Assembly (NCBI GenBank): GCA_016296435.1
Contig: JAEDJI010000025.1
Span: 1-10,856 of the forward strand
DNA from: Bacilli bacterium
GTDB lineage: Bacteria > Bacillota_I > Bacilli_A > RF39 > UBA660
Length of the DNA: 10,856 bases
Direction of reading: 5' to 3'
Shown: positions 1-10,665 of the stretch, one piece after another
Layout: each line of letters starts with the position of its first letter
How positions within the stretch are numbered: the first letter of the stretch is position 1
Translations under genes and position numbers: made by a program
Notes under the pieces: model-generated
Seen by the model: the letters and a program-made list of their open reading frames with translations, nothing else
Databases searched by the model: none
Told to the model about the DNA's origin: nothing

Positions 1-2
1 GG

Positions 3-21
3 TTTCATCATGTTGATGAAA
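3..21. repeat. Perfect inverted repeat overlapping the TR promoter
   Basis: TTTCATCA and TGATGAAA form a perfect 8-bp inverted repeat around a TGT spacer. There is no T-tract after it, so it does not look like an intrinsic terminator. Its right arm overlaps the -35 hexamer of the promoter proposed for the template-repeat RNA, which is the position of an operator. DGRs also carry hairpins close to variable repeats, so it could instead be a structural element belonging to a target gene upstream. In frame 1 the first 24 bases read as the tail of an ORF ending at TAG 22-24, but this is too short to call a gene. Confidence 0.45.
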
Positions 22-41
22 TAGGTTATAAACTGTAAAAT
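13..41 (+). promoter_or_regulatory. Promoter for the DGR template-repeat RNA
   Basis: TTGATG (13-18) and TAAAAT (36-41) are separated by exactly 17 bases. The predicted start is near base 48, at the very beginning of the GC-richer template repeat. The same -10 hexamer is used by the tsaE promoter at 7147-7152. The call rests on the sequence match and position only. Confidence 0.55.
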
Positions 42-42
42 A

Positions 43-201
43 GACGCTAACTTTCCTAACGGTTCCAACCCTTGGTTCATCCGTGGTGGGAACTATGGCA
101 ATGGTGCTAACGCCGGCGCGTTCAACTTCAACAACAACAACGGTAACGCGAACACTAACAACTCTGCTCGTGCCGTGTTCCTTGGCGCTCTGGACTACAC
201 A
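43..201 (+). other. DGR template repeat (TR)
   Basis: This block is far richer in GC than its surroundings. Read in the frame beginning GCT at 46 it encodes a C-type-lectin-like variable segment with the landmarks PWFIRGGNY, AGAFNF and a run of four Asn, then SARAV. Fourteen AAC codons and one AAT fall in about 45 codons. AAC is the codon expected where adenine mutagenesis diversifies a residue without making stops. The frame has a stop at 22-24 and no start or ribosome binding site, so it is a template, not a gene. Adenines appear intact, which favours TR over a mutated variable repeat (VR). It lies upstream of Avd and a DGR-type reverse transcriptase. The exact ends cannot be fixed without the VR; they are placed by the base-composition change. 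Confidence 0.88.
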
Positions 202-330
202 ATTAGAAGAGACCTCTGTTATTACTTAGATAATATCAAGTTTCATATTTCGAATTATTTATATAATTTTGGGTCATGATTATGGTTTACGGATTATAAT
301 AGACTGTTATTTTGTAGAAGTTTATTACCT

Positions 331-352
331 TTTTACAGACATGTTTGTAAAA
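331..352 (+). other. Hairpin in the TR RNA 3' region
   Basis: TTTTACAGA (331-339) can pair with TTTGTAAAA (344-352) through 9 base pairs including one G-U, closing a CATG loop. No T-tract follows. It lies in the non-coding part of the DGR RNA between TR and the terminator, where RNA structure contacts the reverse transcriptase complex in known DGRs. A specific role is not shown. Confidence 0.4.
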
Positions 353-409
353 GAAAGTGTTATATGTGTTTTTAGTGAGTAATGTAATTTGAAAATTAGA
401 AACCATAGG

Positions 410-443
410 CAATATAGAAAATGTCATTTTCTATATTGTTTTT
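410..443 (+). terminator. Intrinsic terminator or attenuator between TR and msl
   Basis: CAATATAGAAAATG (410-423) is perfectly complementary to CATTTTCTATATTG (425-438), a 14-base inverted repeat with only one unpaired central base, followed by five T (439-443). In RNA the innermost pairs would open to form a loop. It ends about 15 bases before the ribosome binding site of the MutS-like gene, so it should cap the TR RNA and may limit readthrough into msl-avd-RT. Confidence 0.75.
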
Positions 444-466
444 ATATATCTGCTTTTTGGAGGTTT

Positions 467-820
467 ATGAGTAAAATATACAATTTATATTTAGATTATA
501 AAAGTAAAGATAATACTTATTTATATTTATTTAAGTGTGGTAATTTTTATATTTTTATTGGTGATGATTGTGATTATATATGTAGAGTAACTACTTTAAA
601 AAAGATTAAGTTTACTAATGATGTATATAAATGTGGTTTTCCCCTTAATAGTCTTGATACTTATCTTAGTATATTTAAAGAGATTGGACTTAATATAAAA
701 GTTATTGATGAATTAAATGATGATAATGTTCTTGTTAATAGAATTAAGAATATAGATCTTAATAATACAACAGGAATTGAAGCACTTAATATTTTAAAGG
801 AGTTAAAGGAATTAATATGA
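467..820 (+). CDS. Miniature MutS-like DGR accessory protein (MSL)
   Basis: The 117-residue protein is too small to be MutS but resembles two separate parts of it. Residues about 7-80 match the mismatch-recognition domain I: YLDYK, then GNFYIF (25-30) in place of the usual GDFYExF, and CGFP...LDTYL. Residues about 92-117 (IDLNNTTGIEAL, then ILKELKEL) resemble the extreme C-terminal TPxxAL-xxL-xxLK tail of MutS. The connector, clamp and ATPase domains are absent. Phe27, aligned with the mismatch-stacking Phe, is kept, but the following Glu of the F-x-E motif is Ile29. MutS-like accessory genes have been reported in DGR surveys, from memory. ATG 467 is chosen because GGAGGT sits at 459-464; the longer TTG start at 389 would run through the terminator hairpin. 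It overlaps avd by ATGA, implying coupled translation. Its role, perhaps binding TR/VR heteroduplex or cDNA, is inference. Confidence 0.75.
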   Translation: MSKIYNLYLDYKSKDNTYLYLFKCGNFYIFIGDDCDYICRVTTLKKIKFTNDVYKCGFPLNSLDTYLSIFKEIGLNIKVIDELNDDNVLVNRIKNIDLNNTTGIEALNILKELKELI

Positions 821-1167
821 ATGAATTAGAAAATCTTGTTATATACAAGAAATATACTGATATGATGTATTATTTTTATAATTTACTCGATAAATATCCG
901 AAGTCTGAAAGTAATGGATTAGTAAGTGAAATTAAATATAATTTATATCTTGGTCTTGTAAGCATTATTAATGCTTATAAGAGTTATGATAGTAAAATAA
1001 AATATTTAAATGAACTTGATGTTCATTTAAAAGTATTAAAAGTTTTAGTTAGAATATCTTATAGAAAAAAATATATAACTGGTAAAAACTATGGAGCTTG
1101 TTCTAGAAAAATTGGTGATGTTAATAATATAATGTTTGGATGGATTTATAAGTGCCAAAAACGATAA
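817..1167 (+). CDS. avd: DGR accessory variability determinant (Avd)
   Basis: This 116-residue protein matches the Avd family in length and pattern. It opens with an LVIYKKYTDMMYYFYNLLDKYPKS helix-turn segment (split here as residues 7-20 and 21-30), continues with a helical middle (NLYLGLVSIINA), and ends in an INDxxxxxGxW-like tail (IGDVNNIMFGWI). Avd proteins are small, basic four-helix bundles that form pentamers, bind nucleic acid and the DGR reverse transcriptase, and are required for mutagenic retrohoming. The start ATG overlaps the stop of the MutS-like gene, with AAAGGAG shortly upstream. The 3' end overlaps the reverse transcriptase start by 16 bases, so all three proteins come from one operon and are probably made in linked amounts. 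Confidence 0.88.
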   Translation: MNELENLVIYKKYTDMMYYFYNLLDKYPKSESNGLVSEIKYNLYLGLVSIINAYKSYDSKIKYLNELDVHLKVLKVLVRISYRKKYITGKNYGACSRKIGDVNNIMFGWIYKCQKR

Positions 1168-2153
1168 GGAATTGTTATTATAGAAAACTAACTTTTGATA
1201 GTTTATATAATGCTTATATTAGAGCAAGTTTAAATAAAAGAAATAAAAGAGCTGTTATTAAGTTTAGTGTTGATTTAGAAACTTATCTTAGTAATATATA
1301 TAACGAATTGTATAATAATTCTTATAAGTCTTCTAAATATAGGGAATTTATTATATATGAACCAAAGAAGAGAATTATTAAGGCTTTACCTTTTAGAGAC
1401 AGGATTGTTCATCAATGGTATATTGAAGAGTTTATTAAACCTTATATTGTACCAAGGTTTATTGAGGATTCTTATGCTTGTATTATTGGAAAAGGTACAC
1501 ATCAGGCTATTTTAAAACTTAATAAATATATGAGAATTATGAATAAAAAGTATGGAGAGTATTATATTATTAAGTTTGATATAAGTAAGTATTTTGAAAG
1601 TATTGATAAGAATATACTTTATAAAATAATGATGAAATATATTAGTGATAAATATTTGCTTAATTTAACTTATAATATTATATTTGATAATGACTTTAAT
1701 GGTATACCAATTGGTAATTATACAAGTCAATACTTTGCTAATATTTATTTAAATGAACTTGATTATTATGCAAAGTTTGACTTAAAATTAGATTATTATA
1801 TTAGGTATATGGATGATTTTATAGTATTAGTTAAAGATAAGATTGATGCTAAAAGGATTTATTGTTTAATTGAGTCATTTGTTAATGATCAATTAAACTT
1901 AAAACTTAATAGAAAAAGTAGATATTATCCCTCAAGATTAGGATGTGATTTTTGTGGATATATTTTATATAATGATTATAAGTTAATTCGTAAAAGAAGT
2001 ATAAAAGGTATGAGAGATAAAATATATGACTTTAAAAAGGGTATTGTTAGTTTTGATGAAATTGAACTTAGTTTTGTTTCTTGGTGTGGTCATGCTAGAC
2101 ATGCTAATAGTTATAAGGTAATGAGTGATTTTTATGGCTTTATTTATAAATAG
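1152..2153 (+). CDS. DGR-type reverse transcriptase
   Basis: The 333-residue protein has the reverse transcriptase motifs in order. FDISKYFESID (142-152) contains catalytic Asp143. IGNYTSQ (187-193) is the I/L-G-x-x-x-S-Q motif that distinguishes DGR enzymes from group II intron and retron relatives, which have QG at this place. YMDD (219-222) carries the metal-binding Asp pair, and LGCDFCGY (263-270) lies in the following region. There is no fused maturase or endonuclease domain, and the length is normal for DGR enzymes. These enzymes copy TR RNA with frequent errors at adenines, and the cDNA replaces the VR of a target gene. The GTG start at 1152 overlaps avd by 16 bases and has only a weak binding site, so translation is likely coupled. 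The family assignment is firm. Confidence 0.93.
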   Translation: MPKTIRNCYYRKLTFDSLYNAYIRASLNKRNKRAVIKFSVDLETYLSNIYNELYNNSYKSSKYREFIIYEPKKRIIKALPFRDRIVHQWYIEEFIKPYIVPRFIEDSYACIIGKGTHQAILKLNKYMRIMNKKYGEYYIIKFDISKYFESIDKNILYKIMMKYISDKYLLNLTYNIIFDNDFNGIPIGNYTSQYFANIYLNELDYYAKFDLKLDYYIRYMDDFIVLVKDKIDAKRIYCLIESFVNDQLNLKLNRKSRYYPSRLGCDFCGYILYNDYKLIRKRSIKGMRDKIYDFKKGIVSFDEIELSFVSWCGHARHANSYKVMSDFYGFIYK

Positions 2154-2175
2154 GGTGCAGTGATTCACCAAATGT

Positions 2176-2204
2176 GATGCTTACTTGGTAGTAAGTGTCT
2201 TTTT
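2176..2204 (+). terminator. Intrinsic terminator of the DGR operon
   Basis: GATGCTTACT (2176-2185) pairs with AGTAAGTGTC (2190-2199), including two G-U pairs, around a TGGT loop. Five T follow (2200-2204). It lies 22 bases after the reverse transcriptase stop and separates the DGR from the next gene. Confidence 0.75.
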
Positions 2205-2254
2205 AATGTTGTATTTTATTAGTAAAAATAATTTTAATACTTGGTGTTTTTAGA

Positions 2255-2313: not shown

Positions 2314-4962
2314 ATGAGTTTTAACGATAATGATGTGAGTAATAACAATGTTAATAATTTAAATAATTCTAATGTTAATAATGGTATAGATAATATGAAT
2401 AATACTTCTTTTGATAGTGGTTTTAATAATTATGAGAATAGTGATTTTAATAGTTCTAATATGAATCAATATGATAATTCTAGTATTGGGAATGCTAGTT
2501 ATGATCAACCTGATTATAGTGATTTTGGTAATTCTGATACTGGTGATTATTCTAATAGTGATAATGGTCTTAAGAAGAAACTTATTATTGGTGTTGTAGT
2601 TATTATTGCTATTATAATTCTTATATTGATTTTTACGTCTTTATTTGGTAGAGGTAATAAGAAACTTGATTTAGATGTTCCTGATGTTGTTTATGCTGGA
2701 AATGAGTTTGAGTTTGTTACTGCTATTCCTAATTCTGATAAGGAATTATTTTATATGTTTAGTAGTGATAATCAAGAAGTGCTTCAATTTGAATATAAAT
2801 CACTTGCATCGGGTGATACTGCTAATACAATTATTCCTAAAAAGGATGGAAAGGCTAAAATAAAGGTTCAGGCTTTTGATAAAGGTAAGCTTGTTGGTGT
2901 GTATGAACGTGAAGTTATTGTTTGTCCAAAGTTTGATGATACTATATTTAGTAATGATGTCTATAAAGTTGCTTCAGGTGATGACTTAGATCTAGGTATT
3001 GATTTAGGCGTTTATGAAGAATGTTATAAGAATATTAAGTATACTAGTACTGATGAAGATATTGCTCTTGTTTCTAGTGATGGGGTTGTTTCTGCAAAAA
3101 AGAAGGGTAATACTACTATAAAAGTAAGTAATAAGTACAAAACTGTTGATAAAAAGGTTTATGTTGTTTCTGCATCGGGCATTAATTCTGTAACAGGTGT
3201 TAAACTTAATGTTTCATCTCTTAATATATCTGTTGGAAAAAGTGGAAGTTTATCTGCTATTGTGTCTCCGAGTAACGCTACTAATAAGTCTGTTATTTGG
3301 TCATCTAGTAATGAGAGTGTTGCTCTTGTTTCTAGTAAAGGTAAGGTTGTTGGAGTAGGTGTTGGTAGTGCTGTTATTACTGTTACTACTCAAGATGGTA
3401 ATAAAACTGCTATGGCAAATGTTACAGTTAAAAATCCTAGTTCTAGTTCTTCTAGTAGTAGTTCATCGAATACTAGTGGTTCTAGTTCTAGTTCTAAATA
3501 TAAAAAAGTTACTAAGATTTCTATAAATAATGATGATTTTACTATTAAAGTTGGTAATACTAAGTCTTTATCTTATACTATTACTCCGAGTAATGCTACT
3601 AATAAGAAAGTGACATGGGATACTGGGAATCCTTCAATTGCAAAGGTTAATAATGCTGGAAAGGTTACTGGTGTAGGTGCTGGTACTACTTATATTTCTA
3701 TAAAGAGTGTTGATGGTGTTTCCGATAAAGTCAAAGTAGTAGTTACTAAAAGCGAACCAATTAAAGCTACTAAAATCACATTGACTCCAAGTTCTCTTAC
3801 TTTAAATGTTGGTTCTAAAAAGGCTGTTTCTGCTACTGTTACGCCAAGTAATGCTACTATTAAAACAGTTACATGGGTTTCACATAATACTAATATTGCT
3901 AAAGTAGATAGTTATGGTAATGTAACTGGAGTAGGTGCTGGTAGTACAAAAATTTCTGCTTTTACTACTGATAATTCAGTTAGTGCTTCAATTAATGTTA
4001 CAGTTAATGGTTCTAGTAGTGGTGGTTCTACTACAAAGCCAACTGAACCTGAAAAACCTAAAAATATTGATGTTAATAATATAATAGTTACTCCTACTTC
4101 TGTTGAAATGTATGTTGGTGATACTAAGACTATTGAAACAACTGTGATACCAAATGATGCTACTAATAGTAGTTTGATTTGGAAAAGTACTAATTCAGAT
4201 ATTGCTAGTGTATCAAGTAGTGGCGTTATTAAAGGTTTGAAATATGGTACTACTACTGTGAAGGTTAGTTCTGTTAGTAATCCTAGTGTTTCAAAGGTTA
4301 TAACAGTTAGTGTTAAGAATAAAACTAAGAGTATTTCTTGCTCTACTACATTTACTGATCAAAATGGCCATACTATTAATGGTACTGCAAGTTCTTCTGT
4401 TACTACTATTAATATAAAATCGGTTTGTACTGCTACTGCGACAACTATTAATGATATTTCAATTTATAGTTCAAAGGATTTGATTTCTGTCGCATCATTA
4501 AATATTACTGGTTCTTCTTCTAGTACTTCTAGAACAAAGACTGGTTCAATATATAATGCTAAAGAAAAGGCTGGAACATATACTATAAGAGTAGAGGCTA
4601 CTGATGCAAATAATACTGTGTATACATTTACTTCTCCTCTTGTAATAACTGGATCAGTTTCTTGCTCTAAGATTAAAGCTAATACAGATAATTTAAGTGG
4701 TAAAGTTAAATTTCATGCATATACTAGTAAAAAATTAGGTAGTGTTACCTTGAAACTTACTAATAAGACTAAATCTAAATCTTATTCGTATACAATGTCT
4801 TATAGTGGAACTGTTACTGATAATGGTGATTATAAATATCATTATACTTATGTCGTAGATACAGTAAAGGGTGATGCTTATGTATGGAAAGTTACTGCTA
4901 CTGATAGTTCTTGTGGAAAAACTATTAGTACAGGGGAATATTCAAAAACAGGACCTGCGTGA
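2314..4962 (+). CDS. Membrane-anchored protein with BIG2 Ig-like repeats
   Basis: The 882-residue protein starts with about 85 residues very rich in Asn, Asp and Ser, probably disordered. A Lys cluster (87-89) and one hydrophobic helix (about 90-110) follow, with no visible cleavage site. The charge pattern puts the short N-terminus in the cytoplasm and the long C-terminal part outside. Four clear BIG2 domains lie at about 293-373, 398-477, 484-563 and 587-667, each with VTPSNAT-like and GVGxGxxxI-like landmarks. A weaker domain lies at about 206-286. A Ser-rich linker (376-393) separates domains one and two. The last 210 residues have Cys674 and further Cys residues, and no family I recognise. 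BIG2 modules occur in adhesins and cell-surface proteins, so a surface or envelope role is likely but the ligand is unknown. No segment resembles the DGR TR, so it is not an evident DGR target. It has its own promoter and terminator. Confidence 0.82.
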   Translation: MSFNDNDVSNNNVNNLNNSNVNNGIDNMNNTSFDSGFNNYENSDFNSSNMNQYDNSSIGNASYDQPDYSDFGNSDTGDYSNSDNGLKKKLIIGVVVIIAIIILILIFTSLFGRGNKKLDLDVPDVVYAGNEFEFVTAIPNSDKELFYMFSSDNQEVLQFEYKSLASGDTANTIIPKKDGKAKIKVQAFDKGKLVGVYEREVIVCPKFDDTIFSNDVYKVASGDDLDLGIDLGVYEECYKNIKYTSTDEDIALVSSDGVVSAKKKGNTTIKVSNKYKTVDKKVYVVSASGINSVTGVKLNVSSLNISVGKSGSLSAIVSPSNATNKSVIWSSSNESVALVSSKGKVVGVGVGSAVITVTTQDGNKTAMANVTVKNPSSSSSSSSSSNTSGSSSSSKYKKVTKISINNDDFTIKVGNTKSLSYTITPSNATNKKVTWDTGNPSIAKVNNAGKVTGVGAGTTYISIKSVDGVSDKVKVVVTKSEPIKATKITLTPSSLTLNVGSKKAVSATVTPSNATIKTVTWVSHNTNIAKVDSYGNVTGVGAGSTKISAFTTDNSVSASINVTVNGSSSGGSTTKPTEPEKPKNIDVNNIIVTPTSVEMYVGDTKTIETTVIPNDATNSSLIWKSTNSDIASVSSSGVIKGLKYGTTTVKVSSVSNPSVSKVITVSVKNKTKSISCSTTFTDQNGHTINGTASSSVTTINIKSVCTATATTINDISIYSSKDLISVASLNITGSSSSTSRTKTGSIYNAKEKAGTYTIRVEATDANNTVYTFTSPLVITGSVSCSKIKANTDNLSGKVKFHAYTSKKLGSVTLKLTNKTKSKSYSYTMSYSGTVTDNGDYKYHYTYVVDTVKGDAYVWKVTATDSSCGKTISTGEYSKTGPA
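3190..4314 (+). repeat. Tandem BIG2-domain coding repeats
   Basis: Four diverged repeats of roughly 240-300 bases encode the BIG2 domains. The best-conserved part is the stretch meaning PSNAT, for example CCGAGTAACGCTACTAATAA near 3268 and a close copy near 3587, with weaker copies near 3844 and 4152. A Ser-codon run (about 3439-3492) lies between repeats one and two. Such repeats can recombine and change domain number between strains. Confidence 0.7.
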
Positions 4963-6569: not shown

Positions 6570-7106
6570 ATGTCAAAAAAGATATGGAATTTTATTATTG
6601 GTTTGGTTCTTATAATTGGTGGTGCTATATTGCTCGTTAATCCTGAACAATCTTTTTCTAAATTAGTTTTTTTTGTAGGAATTGTATTGTTATTAACAGG
6701 AATAATAAAAATAATTTATGCTTTTTTAAATAGAGATTATGTTTATTTGCCTGGTAATGTATTTATGAGTGGATTTTTAAATGCTTTGTTTGGGTTTGTG
6801 CTTATTTTTAATCCTGATACTACTACTAAGATAATATCTATATTTATTGGGATTTGGTTACTTTCTACTTCTTTATCATCTTTAGTGTTATTACTTAATA
6901 TGAAAGGAAGTGATTATTTTAGTCAAACTATGTTAGTGACTAATATTCTTAAGTTTATTGTAGGTTTATTAGTACTTGTTACTCCGATTATTTCAGTATT
7001 GTTTACAGGTGTATTTTTAGGATTGTTCTTAATAGTAGTTGGTGTTTGTGCAATATTTAATTATAAAGATGAAGAAAAAATATATAAAGTTAAAGTAAAA
7101 AAATAG
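6570..7106 (+). CDS. DUF308/HdeD-like membrane protein
   Basis: The 178-residue protein is almost entirely hydrophobic. It is built from three internal repeats of two membrane helices: about 7-50, 67-110 and 125-163. Two repeats have an NP turn (VNPE at 23-26, FNPD at 80-83) and the third a TP turn. This is the pattern of DUF308, the family of the E. coli acid-resistance membrane protein HdeD. The C-terminus is short and Lys-rich, likely cytoplasmic. Function outside enterobacteria is not established. ATG 6570 is preferred to ATG 6555 because GGGAGG (6557-6562) lies between them at correct spacing. It starts 16 bases after the lipoprotein stop and is followed by a terminator. Confidence 0.78.
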   Translation: MSKKIWNFIIGLVLIIGGAILLVNPEQSFSKLVFFVGIVLLLTGIIKIIYAFLNRDYVYLPGNVFMSGFLNALFGFVLIFNPDTTTKIISIFIGIWLLSTSLSSLVLLLNMKGSDYFSQTMLVTNILKFIVGLLVLVTPIISVLFTGVFLGLFLIVVGVCAIFNYKDEEKIYKVKVKK

Positions 7107-7170: not shown

Positions 7171-7623
7171 ATGGAATATAAAATTACTTTAAGGGATGAA
7201 AGTGAAACTATTGAACTTGCTCAAAATATAGAGTCAGAAAAGTTTTTTAATATGGTTATTTGTTTGAACGGAGATTTAGGTAGTGGTAAGACTGTTTTTG
7301 CTAAGGGTTTTGCTAGTGCTTTAGGTATTGATGAGGTTATTACTTCTCCTACATTTAATATAGTTAAAGAATATACTTCTGGAGAAATTCCTCTTTTTCA
7401 TATGGATGTTTATAGATTGGATGAAACAGATGTTGAAATTGATTTTGCGGAGTATTTTGTTAAGAAAGGTGTTACTATTATTGAGTGGTCAGATATGATT
7501 AAAGATTTGCTTCCTGAAGAAAGATTGGAAATTAGTTTTAAAATTATTGGTGAAGATACTAGACTTGTTATTATTAGGCCTATTGGAAAAAGATATGAAG
7601 ACTTATGTGAGGCGGTATTATGA
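7171..7623 (+). CDS. tsaE: tRNA t6A synthesis ATPase TsaE
   Basis: The 150-residue protein is full length for TsaE, the P-loop ATPase that works with TsaB and TsaD to place threonylcarbamoyl on A37 of ANN-decoding tRNAs in the cytoplasm. Visible motifs are the Walker A loop GDLGSGKT (34-41), the SPTF switch segment (59-62), HMDVYRL (77-83) and the Walker B-like IIEWSD (103-108). Family knowledge holds that TsaE drives a catalytic cycle of the complex rather than transferring the group itself. It is first in the operon, directly behind a good promoter, and its stop overlaps the tsaB start (ATGA). Confidence 0.95.
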   Translation: MEYKITLRDESETIELAQNIESEKFFNMVICLNGDLGSGKTVFAKGFASALGIDEVITSPTFNIVKEYTSGEIPLFHMDVYRLDETDVEIDFAEYFVKKGVTIIEWSDMIKDLLPEERLEISFKIIGEDTRLVIIRPIGKRYEDLCEAVL

Positions 7624-8237
7624 TAAGTCTTTTTTTGAATACTTCGGTTGATTTTCTTTCTGTTGCAATTGTTAAAGATGATGTTGTATTAGATTCTTTT
7701 TATACTAAGCTTAATAATGATTTATCTAAAATTACTCTTAGTGTTATTGATGATATGTTGAATAGATTGTCTATTTCTAAGAGGGATATTGATAAAATTG
7801 TTTGTGTTAATGGTCCAGGATCTTTTACTGGACTTAGAATTGGTGTTACTATAGCTAAGGTTTGGGCTTATAGTCTTAATATTGACATTATAGGAGTTTC
7901 TAGTTTATATGTACTTGCTACTGGAGTAGAGGGTGATTATATAGTTCCTATTATTGATGCAAGGCGTGGTTATGTTTATGCTGGTATTTATGATGGTAAT
8001 TACAATGTTATTATGAATGATTGCTATATTTCTTTGGAAGAATTGTCTAATAAGGTTAGTGAACTTTCGTCTGATGTTGTTTATGTGTCTTCGAATGGGT
8101 TTAATGGTTCTGTAGTGTATAGTCCAAATATTGAAAGAATATTTAAATATATAGATATGAGTAATGTTAGTAATTGTTTTTCATTTGTTCCTAATTATTT
8201 AAAAAGGGTTGAAGCTGAGGAAAAGTTAAATGGTTAA
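7620..8237 (+). CDS. tsaB: tRNA t6A complex subunit TsaB
   Basis: The 205-residue protein has the ASKHA-fold start LFLNTSVDFLSVAIVKDD (4-21) and the hallmark GPGSFTGLRIG (65-75). TsaB is a catalytically inactive paralogue of TsaD that pairs with it and bridges to TsaE. At 205 residues it is a little shorter than many bacterial TsaB proteins, mainly at the C-terminus, where family conservation is weak. RRGYVYAGIYD lies at about 115-125. The start overlaps the tsaE stop by four bases, and the end overlaps the rimI start by eight, which suggests coupled translation of the set. Confidence 0.93.
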   Translation: MISLFLNTSVDFLSVAIVKDDVVLDSFYTKLNNDLSKITLSVIDDMLNRLSISKRDIDKIVCVNGPGSFTGLRIGVTIAKVWAYSLNIDIIGVSSLYVLATGVEGDYIVPIIDARRGYVYAGIYDGNYNVIMNDCYISLEELSNKVSELSSDVVYVSSNGFNGSVVYSPNIERIFKYIDMSNVSNCFSFVPNYLKRVEAEEKLNG

Positions 8238-8607
8238 GGATGTTGATGTTTCATTACTTAAATCTTTTGGAGTTGTTAAGACTGCTAATCCTTTTATTAA
8301 GTATATTGGATATTTATTAGATGATGTTGTTATTGGTTATATTGAATATAGTGTTTTATATGAAAAAGCAGAAATATGTAATATTTTTGTTAATGAGGAT
8401 AAGAGAAATATGGGGGTTGGTTTTTTAATGATGAAGTATTTGATTACTTATCTTAAGAGTAGTAATATTTACAATATTACTTTAGAGGTTAGTGTGTTAA
8501 ATAGTAGTGCTATTTCATTGTATAAGAAGTTTGGCTTTGTAGAGGTTGCAAAAAGAAATGGCTATTATAATGGGGTAGATGGTATTTTGATGGAGTTGAT
8601 TTTATGA
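8230..8607 (+). CDS. rimI: GNAT N-acetyltransferase, RimI-like
   Basis: The 125-residue protein is a compact GNAT fold. The acetyl-CoA pyrophosphate-binding R-x-x-G-x-G motif is RNMGVG (59-64). LEVSVLNSSAISLYKKFGF (85-103) matches the RimI pattern LEVrxsNxxAixLYxkxGF, followed by RNGYY (109-113). RimI acetylates the N-terminus of ribosomal protein S18 in E. coli, and RimI-type enzymes act on other N-termini elsewhere. Its place between tsaB and tsaD is a common arrangement in low-GC Gram-positives. It is shorter than E. coli RimI, with a trimmed N-terminus. GAGG near 8217 precedes ATG 8230, and the end overlaps tsaD by four bases. The substrate cannot be told from sequence. Confidence 0.85.
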   Translation: MVKDVDVSLLKSFGVVKTANPFIKYIGYLLDDVVIGYIEYSVLYEKAEICNIFVNEDKRNMGVGFLMMKYLITYLKSSNIYNITLEVSVLNSSAISLYKKFGFVEVAKRNGYYNGVDGILMELIL

Positions 8608-9608
8608 AAGATGTTTATATTTTAGGTATTGAGAGTAGTTGTGATGAAACTAGTGTTTCAATTGTTAAGAATGGTTGTGATGAGATTAATACTGTTATTC
8701 TTAGTCAAATTGATATTCATACTTTATACGGAGGGGTTGTTCCTGAAATTGCTAGTCGAAATCATGTAAAAGATATTACTTTTGTAATTGATAAGTGTCT
8801 TAGAGATTCTGGTATTGAAATGGATATGATTGATGCTGTTGCTGTCACATATGGGCCTGGTCTTATTGGATCTTTGTTGGTAGGACTTGAAGCTGCTAAG
8901 ACTATTGCTTATGTGTATGATAAACCTTTAATACCTGTTCATCATATTGCTGGGCATATTTATGCAAATAATATCGGTCATGAACTTAAATTTCCGCTTT
9001 TGTCACTTGTTATTAGTGGTGGGCATACTGAACTTATTAAAATGGATGATCATTTAAGTTTTTTAAAGATTGGTGGTACTTTAGATGATGCTGTTGGTGA
9101 ATGCTATGATAAGGTTGCGCGTGTTGTTGGAATTGGCTATCCTGGTGGCCCTTTAGTTGATAAGCTTGCTCATACTGGAAATGTAAGCTATCATTTACCT
9201 ATTCCTATGAACGATGATAGTTACAATTTTAGTTTTAGTGGACTTAAGAGCGCTGTTATAAACTTGGTACATAATGAGGAACAACGTGGTAATGTTATAA
9301 ATAAAGAGGATTTGTGTGCTTCTTTTCAAGATGTTGTTGTAAAATCATTGGTTGGAAAAACTGTTAAGGCATTAAAAGAATATAATATTAATAATCTTAT
9401 AGTAGCAGGTGGTGTTGCTGCTAATAAGGGGATAAGAGATGCTTTTGAAAAAGAATCTTTAATAAATGAGTTTTCGTTTAGTTTTCCAGATATGAAATAT
9501 TGTACTGATAATGCTACGATGATTGCTGCATGTGGATACTTTTTATATAAAAAAGGTGTGCGTGCTGGTCTTGATCTTAACGCAAAATCTAGTGAAAAAT
9601 TGTTTTAA
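8604..9608 (+). CDS. tsaD: tRNA threonylcarbamoyltransferase TsaD
   Basis: The 334-residue protein is full length for TsaD (Gcp/YgjD/Kae1 family), the catalytic subunit that transfers threonylcarbamoyl from its adenylate to A37 of ANN-decoding tRNAs. Motifs in order are GIESSCDETS (8-17), GGVVPEIASRNH (43-54), GPGLIGSLLVG (84-94), the metal-binding HHIAGH (113-118, H114 and H118), SGGHTEL (138-144), AGGVAAN (268-274) and CTDNAAM-like CTDNATM (300-306), whose Asp302 completes the metal site. All key residues are present. It is the last gene of the operon. No strong terminator follows; only a weak A+T palindrome lies at about 9608-9621. Confidence 0.96.
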   Translation: MKDVYILGIESSCDETSVSIVKNGCDEINTVILSQIDIHTLYGGVVPEIASRNHVKDITFVIDKCLRDSGIEMDMIDAVAVTYGPGLIGSLLVGLEAAKTIAYVYDKPLIPVHHIAGHIYANNIGHELKFPLLSLVISGGHTELIKMDDHLSFLKIGGTLDDAVGECYDKVARVVGIGYPGGPLVDKLAHTGNVSYHLPIPMNDDSYNFSFSGLKSAVINLVHNEEQRGNVINKEDLCASFQDVVVKSLVGKTVKALKEYNINNLIVAGGVAANKGIRDAFEKESLINEFSFSFPDMKYCTDNATMIAACGYFLYKKGVRAGLDLNAKSSEKLF

Positions 9609-9652
9609 TTTTATAAAATTGAAAAAAATATTAAAAAAATGCAAAAAATCAC

Positions 9653-9681
9653 TTGCAAAATAATAAAATATATAGTATCAT
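9653..9681 (+). promoter_or_regulatory. Promoter of the tRNA cluster
   Basis: TTGCAA (9653-9658) and TATCAT (9676-9681) are 17 bases apart and lie about 29 bases ahead of the first tRNA. The -10 hexamer and the following TTATAT are shared with the BIG2 promoter. Confidence 0.65.
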
Positions 9682-9709
9682 TTATATTGCTTACAGAAGT
9701 TTGCATTGT

Positions 9710-9786
<77 letters not shown>

Positions 9787-9791
9787 TATAT

Positions 9792-9868
9792 GCCTCAATA
9801 GCTCAGTTGGTTAGAGCACTTGACTGTTAATCAAGGGGTCCTAGGTTCAAGTCCTAGTTGGGGCGCCA
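9792..9868 (+). tRNA. tRNA-Asn (GUU)
   Basis: The 77-base cloverleaf has acceptor GCCTCAA with TTGGGGC, anticodon stem CTTGA/TCAAG, loop CTGTTAA with GTT at 9826-9828, T-loop TTCAAGT, G73 and an encoded CCA. It is the probable ligand of the T-box leader that begins about 160 bases downstream of its 3' end. Confidence 0.96.
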
Positions 9869-9876
9869 TTATTATT

Positions 9877-9953
9877 GGCCCGTTGGTGAAGTGGCTTAAC
9901 ACACCACCCTTTCACGGTGGCATTCTCGGGTTCGAATCCCGTACGGGTCACCA
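9877..9953 (+). tRNA. tRNA-Glu (UUC)
   Basis: The 77-base cloverleaf has acceptor GGCCCGT with ACGGGTC (one G-U), anticodon stem CCACC/GGTGG, loop CTTTCAC with TTC at 9911-9913, T-loop TTCGAAT, A73 and an encoded CCA. It is the last gene of the three-tRNA unit. Confidence 0.96.
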
Positions 9954-10021: not shown

Positions 10022-10027
10022 TTTTTA

Positions 10028-10292
10028 ATAACTTTGAGAAAGAGAAGTAACTTTGATGGAATTTAAAGTGAGTTAGTGATAGTGTGAAACTAATAAGAAA
10101 GTCATTGTGAATAACACTTTTTAGTTGCTTACCGAAAGTTTGCAAGTAGGCTAAGCCGGGCTGTATCCGTTATCTTAATACTAGGTTTGTTAGAACTGAA
10201 AGTGATCATATAAATAAATTTTTATGATAAATTGGGTGTTACCGCGGAATAACCAGTTTTCGTCCCTTTGTTGATGAATACTGGTTATTTTT
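10028..10292 (+). promoter_or_regulatory. T-box leader, probably tRNA-Asn responsive
   Basis: The leader ends in the T-box core GGGTGTTACCGCGG (10234-10247), followed by TTCGTCCC (10259-10266) and a terminator, the standard antiterminator/terminator pair. Stem I is suggested by AGAAGTAAC near 10041 and AGTGAGTTAGTGATAGTGTGAA (as two pieces, about 10066-10076 and 10077-10087) for the distal loops. The likely specifier is AAC (10113-10115) within GTGAATAACACT, an Asn codon that fits the downstream asparagine synthetase. The neighbouring AAT is also Asn. Uncharged tRNA-Asn should favour the antiterminator. The core differs from the consensus GGGTGGNACCGCG by T in place of the second G of the TGGN bulge, the base that pairs with C74 of the tRNA. 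Confidence 0.85.
10248..10292 (+). terminator. T-box-controlled terminator
   Basis: AATAACCAG (10248-10256) pairs perfectly with CTGGTTATT (10281-10289), followed by T to 10292. The conserved TTCGTCCC element lies in its loop and would instead pair with GGG of the T-box in the antiterminator. Confidence 0.85.
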
Positions 10293-10317
10293 AATTTATT
10301 ATAAGGGAGGAATTTAT

Positions 10318-10665
10318 ATGTGTAGTTTTATGGTTTATACCAAGAATGATATTTGTGAAGAGGATTTTTTAAGGGGATTTAGTAAAATTGGGTATAGAGG
10401 ACCTGATATGACTAGAACTGATTTTGTAAATGTAATGTGGGGTTTTCATCGTTTGTCTATTATGGATTTATCAGAGGATGGAATGCAACCATTTTATTTT
10501 AAAGATATGAAGGTTGTATGTAATGGTGAAATATTTGATAAGTATTATGCTTCTTATGATGGTATGATTGTTGACTATTGGATGCCTAATAAAAACTGGG
10601 TTGGATGTGATGTTAACGATCCTTCTGCCAGGGTTTTGTCTAATTATGGTGATAGTGGAAAATAG
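10318..10665 (+). pseudogene. asnB: Asparagine synthetase with large internal deletion
   Basis: The 115-residue product begins exactly like glutamine-hydrolysing asparagine synthetase. It has the nucleophile Cys2 after Met, RGPD (27-30), GFHRLSIMDLS (42-52) and CNGEIF (68-73). It then jumps to the enzyme's C-terminal end: KYYASYDG, DYWMPNKNWVG and DPSARVL (101-107). The rest of the glutaminase domain and the whole ATP-dependent synthetase domain with its SGGLDS loop are missing, several hundred residues in all. The frame is kept across the joint. GGGAGG (10305-10310) and the T-box leader are intact in layout, so the fragment may still be expressed, but it cannot make asparagine. It may be a deletion by recombination between short repeats, or an assembly error. 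Confidence 0.85.

Follow-up and report, generated by a model that had tools for sequence, protein, structure and literature searches.

We analyzed a 10,856-nucleotide (nt) stretch of DNA from a Bacilli bacterium (contig JAEDJI010000025.1 of assembly GCA_016296435.1; hereafter, the window) that carries a diversity-generating retroelement (DGR) at its left end. With a probability of about 0.9, this DGR is chromosomal, belongs to an uncultured Bacilli-type bacterium with AT-rich DNA (window guanine-plus-cytosine [GC] content, 28%), and would operate as modeled below. The element is a real DGR of the group with a MutS-like (MSL) accessory protein, and it has the usual layout of its lineage, with a template repeat (TR) followed by msl, avd (accessory variability determinant), and the reverse transcriptase (RT) gene. 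Two features lie beyond known DGRs, as far as we searched: the TR is embedded in a self-contained, covarying template RNA unit, and, in relatives only, such units are arranged in arrays.

The initial annotation had recognized a DGR from an RT with IGNYTSQ and YMDD motifs, an adjoining avd, and a TR preceding all protein genes in the order TR, MutS-like gene, avd, RT. Each of these points was upheld. DGR-type RTs are characterized by (V/I/L)GxxxSQ together with YMDD, and direct reading of the translation gave IPIGNYTSQ and YMDD, in agreement with the profile matches (PF00078 and PHROG 1423 for RT; PF22296 and PHROG 3206 for Avd). The three genes overlap, msl with avd at 817-820 and avd with the RT gene at 1152-1167. 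A longer, TTG-start msl open reading frame (ORF) from position 389 was not supported; relatives start at the same MSK.

The TR lies upstream on the plus strand, as first annotated, with its bounds shifted from 43-201 to about 46-195. Read in the target frame, all 34 adenines in this interval occupy the first or second codon position (17, 17, and 0 at the three positions). The GC content of 43-201 is 53%, and elsewhere no 159-nt stretch exceeds 40% (starts after 250, tRNA block excluded). Translated, the TR matches the C-termini of proteins P0121-P0124 and P0131, with differences mainly at codons that contain adenine (A-codons). P0121 and those sharing at least 87% identity with it, 12 proteins in all, depart from the TR translation at 149 of 227 A-codons and at 51 of 371 A-free codons, and P0131 differs at 13 of 19 A-codons and at none of 31 A-free codons. 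The expected concentration of variable repeat (VR) differences at TR adenines was thus found at the protein level, in target genes located on separate contigs. These targets have a C-type lectin fold. Pairwise, four of them are 90-95% identical outside the VR and 68-82% identical inside it. Some complete targets start with a prepilin-type signal (e.g., those of loci L053 and L059; P0128, N_methyl 8.2e-7), whereas in others, such as P0121, the N-terminus is a membrane helix. Of the 123 proteins P0121-P0243, only P0128 and P0129 show the prepilin pattern. A scan of the window found neither a second TR copy nor a VR.

Features of the DGR in the window, with the evidence for each.
Feature	Coordinates	Strand	Evidence
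5' hairpin of the TR unit, TTTCATCA-TGT-TGATGAAA, then ATAGGTTATAAACTG	2-22	+	Fold of 1-24, -8.0 kcal/mol
Template repeat (TR), reads ANFPNGSNPWFIRGGNYGNGANAGAFNFNNNNGNANTNNSARAVFLGALD	46-195	+	A-codon pattern and target C-termini
Conserved structured spacer RNA 3' of TR	276-410	+	P1 280-286/293-299 (loop TTACGG), P2 331-336/347-352, P3 364-376/395-406
Terminator-like hairpin and T-run, ending 21 nt 5' of msl	410-445	+	13-bp stem, loop GTC, TTTTTAT; -12.6 kcal/mol
msl, MutS-domain-I protein, 117 aa, ATG start	467-820	+	MutS_I PF01624 E 1.7e-8
avd, accessory variability determinant, 116 aa	817-1167	+	bAvd PF22296 E 9.2e-21; PHROG 3206 "Avd protein of DGR" E 2.7e-22
DGR reverse transcriptase, 333 aa, GTG start	1152-2153	+	PF00078 RVT_1 E 5.7e-14; PHROG 1423 E 4e-99
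Terminator-like site 3' of RT gene	2176-2209	+	1 found vs 0.2 expected in shuffles

Conservation of the layout was assessed in the best 80 genome loci among the matches listed, which come from Bacilli, Tenericutes, and Clostridia bins and have RTs 46-57% identical to that of the window. Avd was encoded in 80 of 80 loci and MSL in 65, and the order MSL, Avd, RT was kept in 64 of those 65. The spacer RNA that follows the TR was detected with a covariance model (R2, built from 138 hits of model R1) in the window and in 60 of the 80 loci at E ≤ 0.01; it was upstream on the strand of the RT in 41, downstream on the opposite strand in 14, downstream on the same strand in 3, and both upstream and downstream in 2. 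The TR-linked RNA thus occupies the same position as in the window in 43 of 60 loci. The view that this is a less common cassette type was therefore not sustained, the more so as VR-TR-RT is given as the commonest order (56.6%) in the consulted part of a 2012 survey (PMC3521204) and MSL appears as a known accessory in an excerpt of another study (PMC10053308).

A scan tolerant of adenine differences, covering the region upstream of the RT on its strand, found a VR-TR pair in 20 of the 80 loci. Wherever a frame was visible, the VR formed the 3' end of the target gene. In these pairs, 297 of 648 TR adenines differed from the VR, compared with 10 of 1940 other bases. The TR had a higher GC content than its locus, and the VR a higher one than the TR, in all 20. 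After the VR comes a hairpin that is missing after the TR; of the 20 relatives, 18 had the greater stability on the VR side, a comparison for which the window itself offers no VR. The gap between VR and TR was 117-369 nt in 18 pairs, and 856 and 1737 nt in two loci with template arrays (L024 and L016, respectively). Because of this arrangement in relatives, the VR of the window would be expected just to the left of base 1. The left contig end was less than 3 kb from the RT in 38 of the 80 loci and the right end in 24, and contigs may break more often at the left side of the DGR.

The structure of the spacer RNA is supported by covariation. In a plain MAFFT alignment of 14 sequences, from which the structure was also derived, 93.4% of cells at 26 pairs were paired, compared with 68.0% after shuffling (standard deviation, 1.7), and two-sided changes occurred at 23 of 26 pairs (15.4 when shuffled). 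The covariation score was 0.779, against 0.271 for shuffled and 0.09-0.17 for slid versions. In alignment A4, P2 of the window is placed two columns off, and the P2 stem in the table was read from the sequence. Model R3, built from the 13 other sequences without the window, found 276-410 of the window at E 2.2e-6, with the next best place at E 0.96. The P1 loop varies, for example between UUACGG and UCAAGG. With stricter filters, R1 had matches at E ≤ 0.01 in 38 of 386 genomes of the family. R2 gave 19 mostly weak hits at E ≤ 1 in a comparison set of 80 viral loci, 7 of them at E ≤ 0.01; of the 19, 16 stop 4-44 nt short of the RT match and 3 follow closely on the RT. The top viral hits (L081 6640-6779, L082 8583-8722, and L084 5518-5657) place a viral template RNA just 3' of the RT on the same strand. 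A search of Rfam returned no family matching the spacer RNA.

The unit also has a recurrent beginning. We read ATAGGTTATAAACTG as the likely counterpart of a GGGATTA-type motif that precedes the TR in relatives: of the 20 relatives that yielded a TR/VR pair, 18 contain a loose pattern for this motif, and in 14 of these 18 the 42 nt on its 5' side folded to -6 or below, compared with 36 of 200 control stretches. Because the hairpin and the GGGATTA-like motif recur 5' of the TR, a single complete unit appears to be contained in the window, at about 2-445. The hairpin at its 3' end (410-445) was missed by a terminator scan that demands three G-C pairs.

Several observations weigh against the overall interpretation. 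The target proteins are on separate contigs, and their assignment to the RT of the window would follow from their likeness to the TR. The differences at A-free codons across the 12 proteins are compatible with it only if several of these proteins belong to strains or genes that use a different TR. R2 did not find the RNA in 20 of the 80 loci, some of which are short of sequence on one side, and the first 6000 bases of the Bordetella phage BPP-1 gave no R1 or R2 hit at E up to 10 with filters off. P1 was broken, by eye, in 3 of the 14 aligned rows (L034, L040, and L055). RNAalifold recovered P2 and P3 but not P1 in 13 opposite-strand relatives, and in 13 phage hits it recovered P1, with two-sided changes at 10 of 10 pairs, but not P2 or P3; since these hits were found by the models, such recovery is support rather than independent confirmation. 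Nor is the terminator universal. Hairpins of -10 kcal/mol or below followed 17 of 44 last units (window included), 9 of 92 units that were internal or downstream, and 5 of 15 units on the opposite strand; among control windows the figure was 15 of 300, in scans whose settings differ slightly between sets.

In some relatives, the template unit is repeated. At least three RNA units were present in 12 of the 80 loci and at least two in 15, with 25 units in L013, 15 in L010, 11 in L032, 10 in L020, 9 in L007, 6 in L024, 5 each in L016 and L063, 4 in L004 (two pairs flanking the RT), and 3 each in L003, L011, and L012. L011 and L012, which belong to two separate bins, have the same three-unit array. 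In L032, units are spaced 357-392 nt apart, and each contains its own TR of different sequence. Judged by sequence pattern, the TR frame is intact in 11/11 units of L032, 19/25 of L013, 6/10 of L020, 5/6 of L024, 4/5 of both L063 and L016, 4/15 of L010, and 0/9 of L007; these counts are uneven, so misses by the pattern or decay must be allowed for. Array status requires 6 changes on the RT tree, or at least 5 if the starred branches are trusted.

One unit matched a VR with at most one non-adenine difference in 7 of the 12 array loci. Differences between this donor unit and the VR, at adenines and at other bases, were 16 and 1 in L004, 15 and 0 in L012, 10 and 0 in L013 (an internal unit), 10 and 0 in L010 (unit 2 of 15), 13 and 1 in L011 (unit 3 of 3), 11 and 1 in L016 (unit 3 of 5), and 18 and 0 in L024 (unit 2 of 6). 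Donors thus sit at different places in their arrays. A clean donor unit was not found for L003, L007, L020, or L032. L063 was rejected as a clean donor; its best unit is the VR without any difference, and a stop lies inside the VR in the target frame. This VR (6838-6950) is identical to the unit at 8125, so that the template was perhaps copied from the VR or the reverse.

Target-like matches numbered 8 to 20 per genome for nine array loci and 8, 2, and 6 in three non-array genomes, in a search whose query represented one lineage and in which many matches span one domain only. Array units and paralogous targets could be paired one to one only in part: eight target-like places in the genome of L032 had 3 to 14 non-adenine differences from their best unit, and in that of L013, one of nine stretches checked held a VR matching a unit. 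The genome of L032 also contains runs of target-like genes, neighbors of one another, with open frames of 663-685 aa (L198, G397:C1:6000-15000; L199, G397:C16:9500-16200). A first count, with more change at consensus adenines than in flanking RNA, had suggested adenine-directed homing into the array TRs, an idea that was not retained. In intact-frame units of seven loci, the third base of Asn codons varied at 168/579, adenines at 333/1162, and other non-adenine bases at 694/4080. Simple adenine-only editing of array templates is therefore unsupported, since the Asn third base is just as variable as the adenines before it. On balance, we lean toward a reading in which this lineage keeps its template in a portable RNA gene, structured and self-contained (5' hairpin, TR, spacer RNA, and sometimes a terminator). 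Such a gene could stand on either side of the RT or on the other strand, and tandem copies could form arrays of up to about 25 different templates, several of them able to write into targets of a multigene surface-protein family. If so, these would be many-templates, many-targets DGRs in which one RT draws on a template library. Within a limited library of literature, we found no report of tandem TR arrays.

MSL is MutS domain I by both profile and predicted fold (pLDDT 90; top Foldseek match, 1nne MutS, E 9.3e-6), and it stands alone beside avd and RT. In MutS, domain I carries Phe-X-Glu as the mismatch motif. Across the window and 65 loci, the Phe aligned to that of MutS FYE is invariant (66 of 66), and the Glu position is occupied by I (50), L (13), or V (3). 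Because of this substitution in all 66 proteins, MSL is unlikely to be a classic mismatch sensor, which amounts to a clear, testable claim about what the accessory does not do. It may instead bind nucleic acid near the template-cDNA duplex or the VR hairpin.

From these parts, we infer the following course of transcription, binding, priming, and homing. The TR RNA would be made as its own unit, comprising the 5' hairpin, TR, structured spacer RNA, and terminator. The msl-avd-RT operon after it is probably expressed by read-through, because there is almost no promoter room after the TR unit. A complex of RT and Avd would bind the spacer RNA and reverse-transcribe the TR, erring at adenines, and the resulting cDNA would take the place of the VR at the 3' terminus of the target gene. 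The target beside this TR is presumably a protein of 660 aa that is anchored in the membrane and has a DGR-type lectin fold at its C-terminus, whose gene is located just upstream of the TR in relatives. MSL probably assists through nucleic acid binding rather than mismatch recognition of the classic kind.

Among other explanations, we considered that 43-201 might be the VR itself, with the 3' end of the target cut at the contig edge and the true TR elsewhere. Its position at the left edge of the contig would suit this, as would a target frame open from 25 to 276. It is nevertheless highly improbable, since an in-frame TAG at 22-24 leaves just 7 codons upstream, so that 43-201 is not the 3' end of a gene. 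Moreover, all 34 adenines remain at codon positions 1 and 2, the segment is followed by a TR-type spacer RNA and not by a VR-type hairpin, and four target proteins end at GALD while the window sequence reads on. We also regard it as unlikely that the DGR has decayed or fallen silent, with its parts intact and mutation ceased. The VR comparison for the window is at the protein level only, and activity would be deduced from sequence; against this, the three frames are intact, YMDD is kept, an RT 99% identical to that of the window (P0001) represents 44 sequences on 9 contigs, and the four targets have diverged mostly inside the VR. It is reasonable to keep the description of the element as active-looking.

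Somewhat less unlikely, though still doubtful, is that the window holds the last unit of a longer TR array and not a single-template DGR. The contig ends at the 5' edge of the TR unit, the array counts and tree changes given above show that arrays recur among relatives, and of the five rows with the shortest path to the window, three (L010, L003, and L007) carry them. However, the rows grouped with the window (L009 and L078; support 80/87) are single-unit, the VR lies only 117-369 nt 5' of the TR in most relatives with a pair, and the window starts at base 1, with nothing further left visible.

Directly after the DGR, 2314-4962 encodes an 882-aa protein with an Asn-rich N-terminus, a membrane-helix-like stretch, and five Big_2 domains (PF02368, 2.6e-57); a VR scan of this gene found none. 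At 7171-9953, ORFs that we take to be tsaE, tsaB, rimI, and tsaD are followed by genes for tRNA-Ile, tRNA-Asn, and tRNA-Glu, and this part looks like an ordinary chromosomal neighborhood. The best identity of the TsaD-like protein among the 386 genomes (the family of a Candidatus Onthousia bin) was 75%, so that this Bacilli-type bacterium has no close relative among them. At 10025-10665, a T-box leader (RF00230) precedes a 115-aa ORF with weak amidotransferase matches, which looks like a truncated amidotransferase or asparagine-synthetase gene.

In the portions of the literature consulted, knowledge of the DGR mechanism comes mostly from a single phage element that has a single template. Template arrays would give the surface proteins of uncultured bacteria a search space that is larger and has more structure, and a covariance model for the template RNA makes such elements findable without a VR in sight. 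MSL-type DGRs were reportedly first described by Wu et al. in 2018. As excerpted, one account places a MutS_I (PF01624) accessory beside Avd and RT in such DGRs, as in the window (PMC10053308); new relative to it are the self-contained TR RNA unit, the loss of Glu in all 66 proteins, and the arrays in some relatives. The part of the 2012 survey cited here (PMC3521204) had already proposed that cassette order varies, that TR and RT may lie on different strands, and that the two are transcribed separately, so the idea of a free-standing template RNA is not in itself new. Excerpts of further DGR literature (PMC6642488 and PMC8144416) were also consulted.

The DGR of Treponema denticola, as described in sections of PMC4891356, resembles that of the window in having its TR upstream and an accessory gene between TR and RT that overlaps the RT; it diversifies variable lipoproteins and has an HRDC accessory where the window has MSL. 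Those sections mention several TRs per individual from metagenomes and no tandem array. The DGR of BPP-1, with the order mtd, avd, TR, brt, shares with the window an RT, Avd, an A-rich TR, and a VR at the end of a lectin-fold gene (portions of PMC8867640, PMC12875486, and PMC3240598). A hairpin after the VR is common to BPP-1 and relatives of the window (same portion of PMC3240598), and a structured RNA after the TR, described for BPP-1 in the material consulted, is present in the window. Unlike BPP-1, the window has its TR 5' of all protein genes with a terminator-like hairpin between them, an additional MSL gene, a cellular host, and RNA models that do not match BPP-1.
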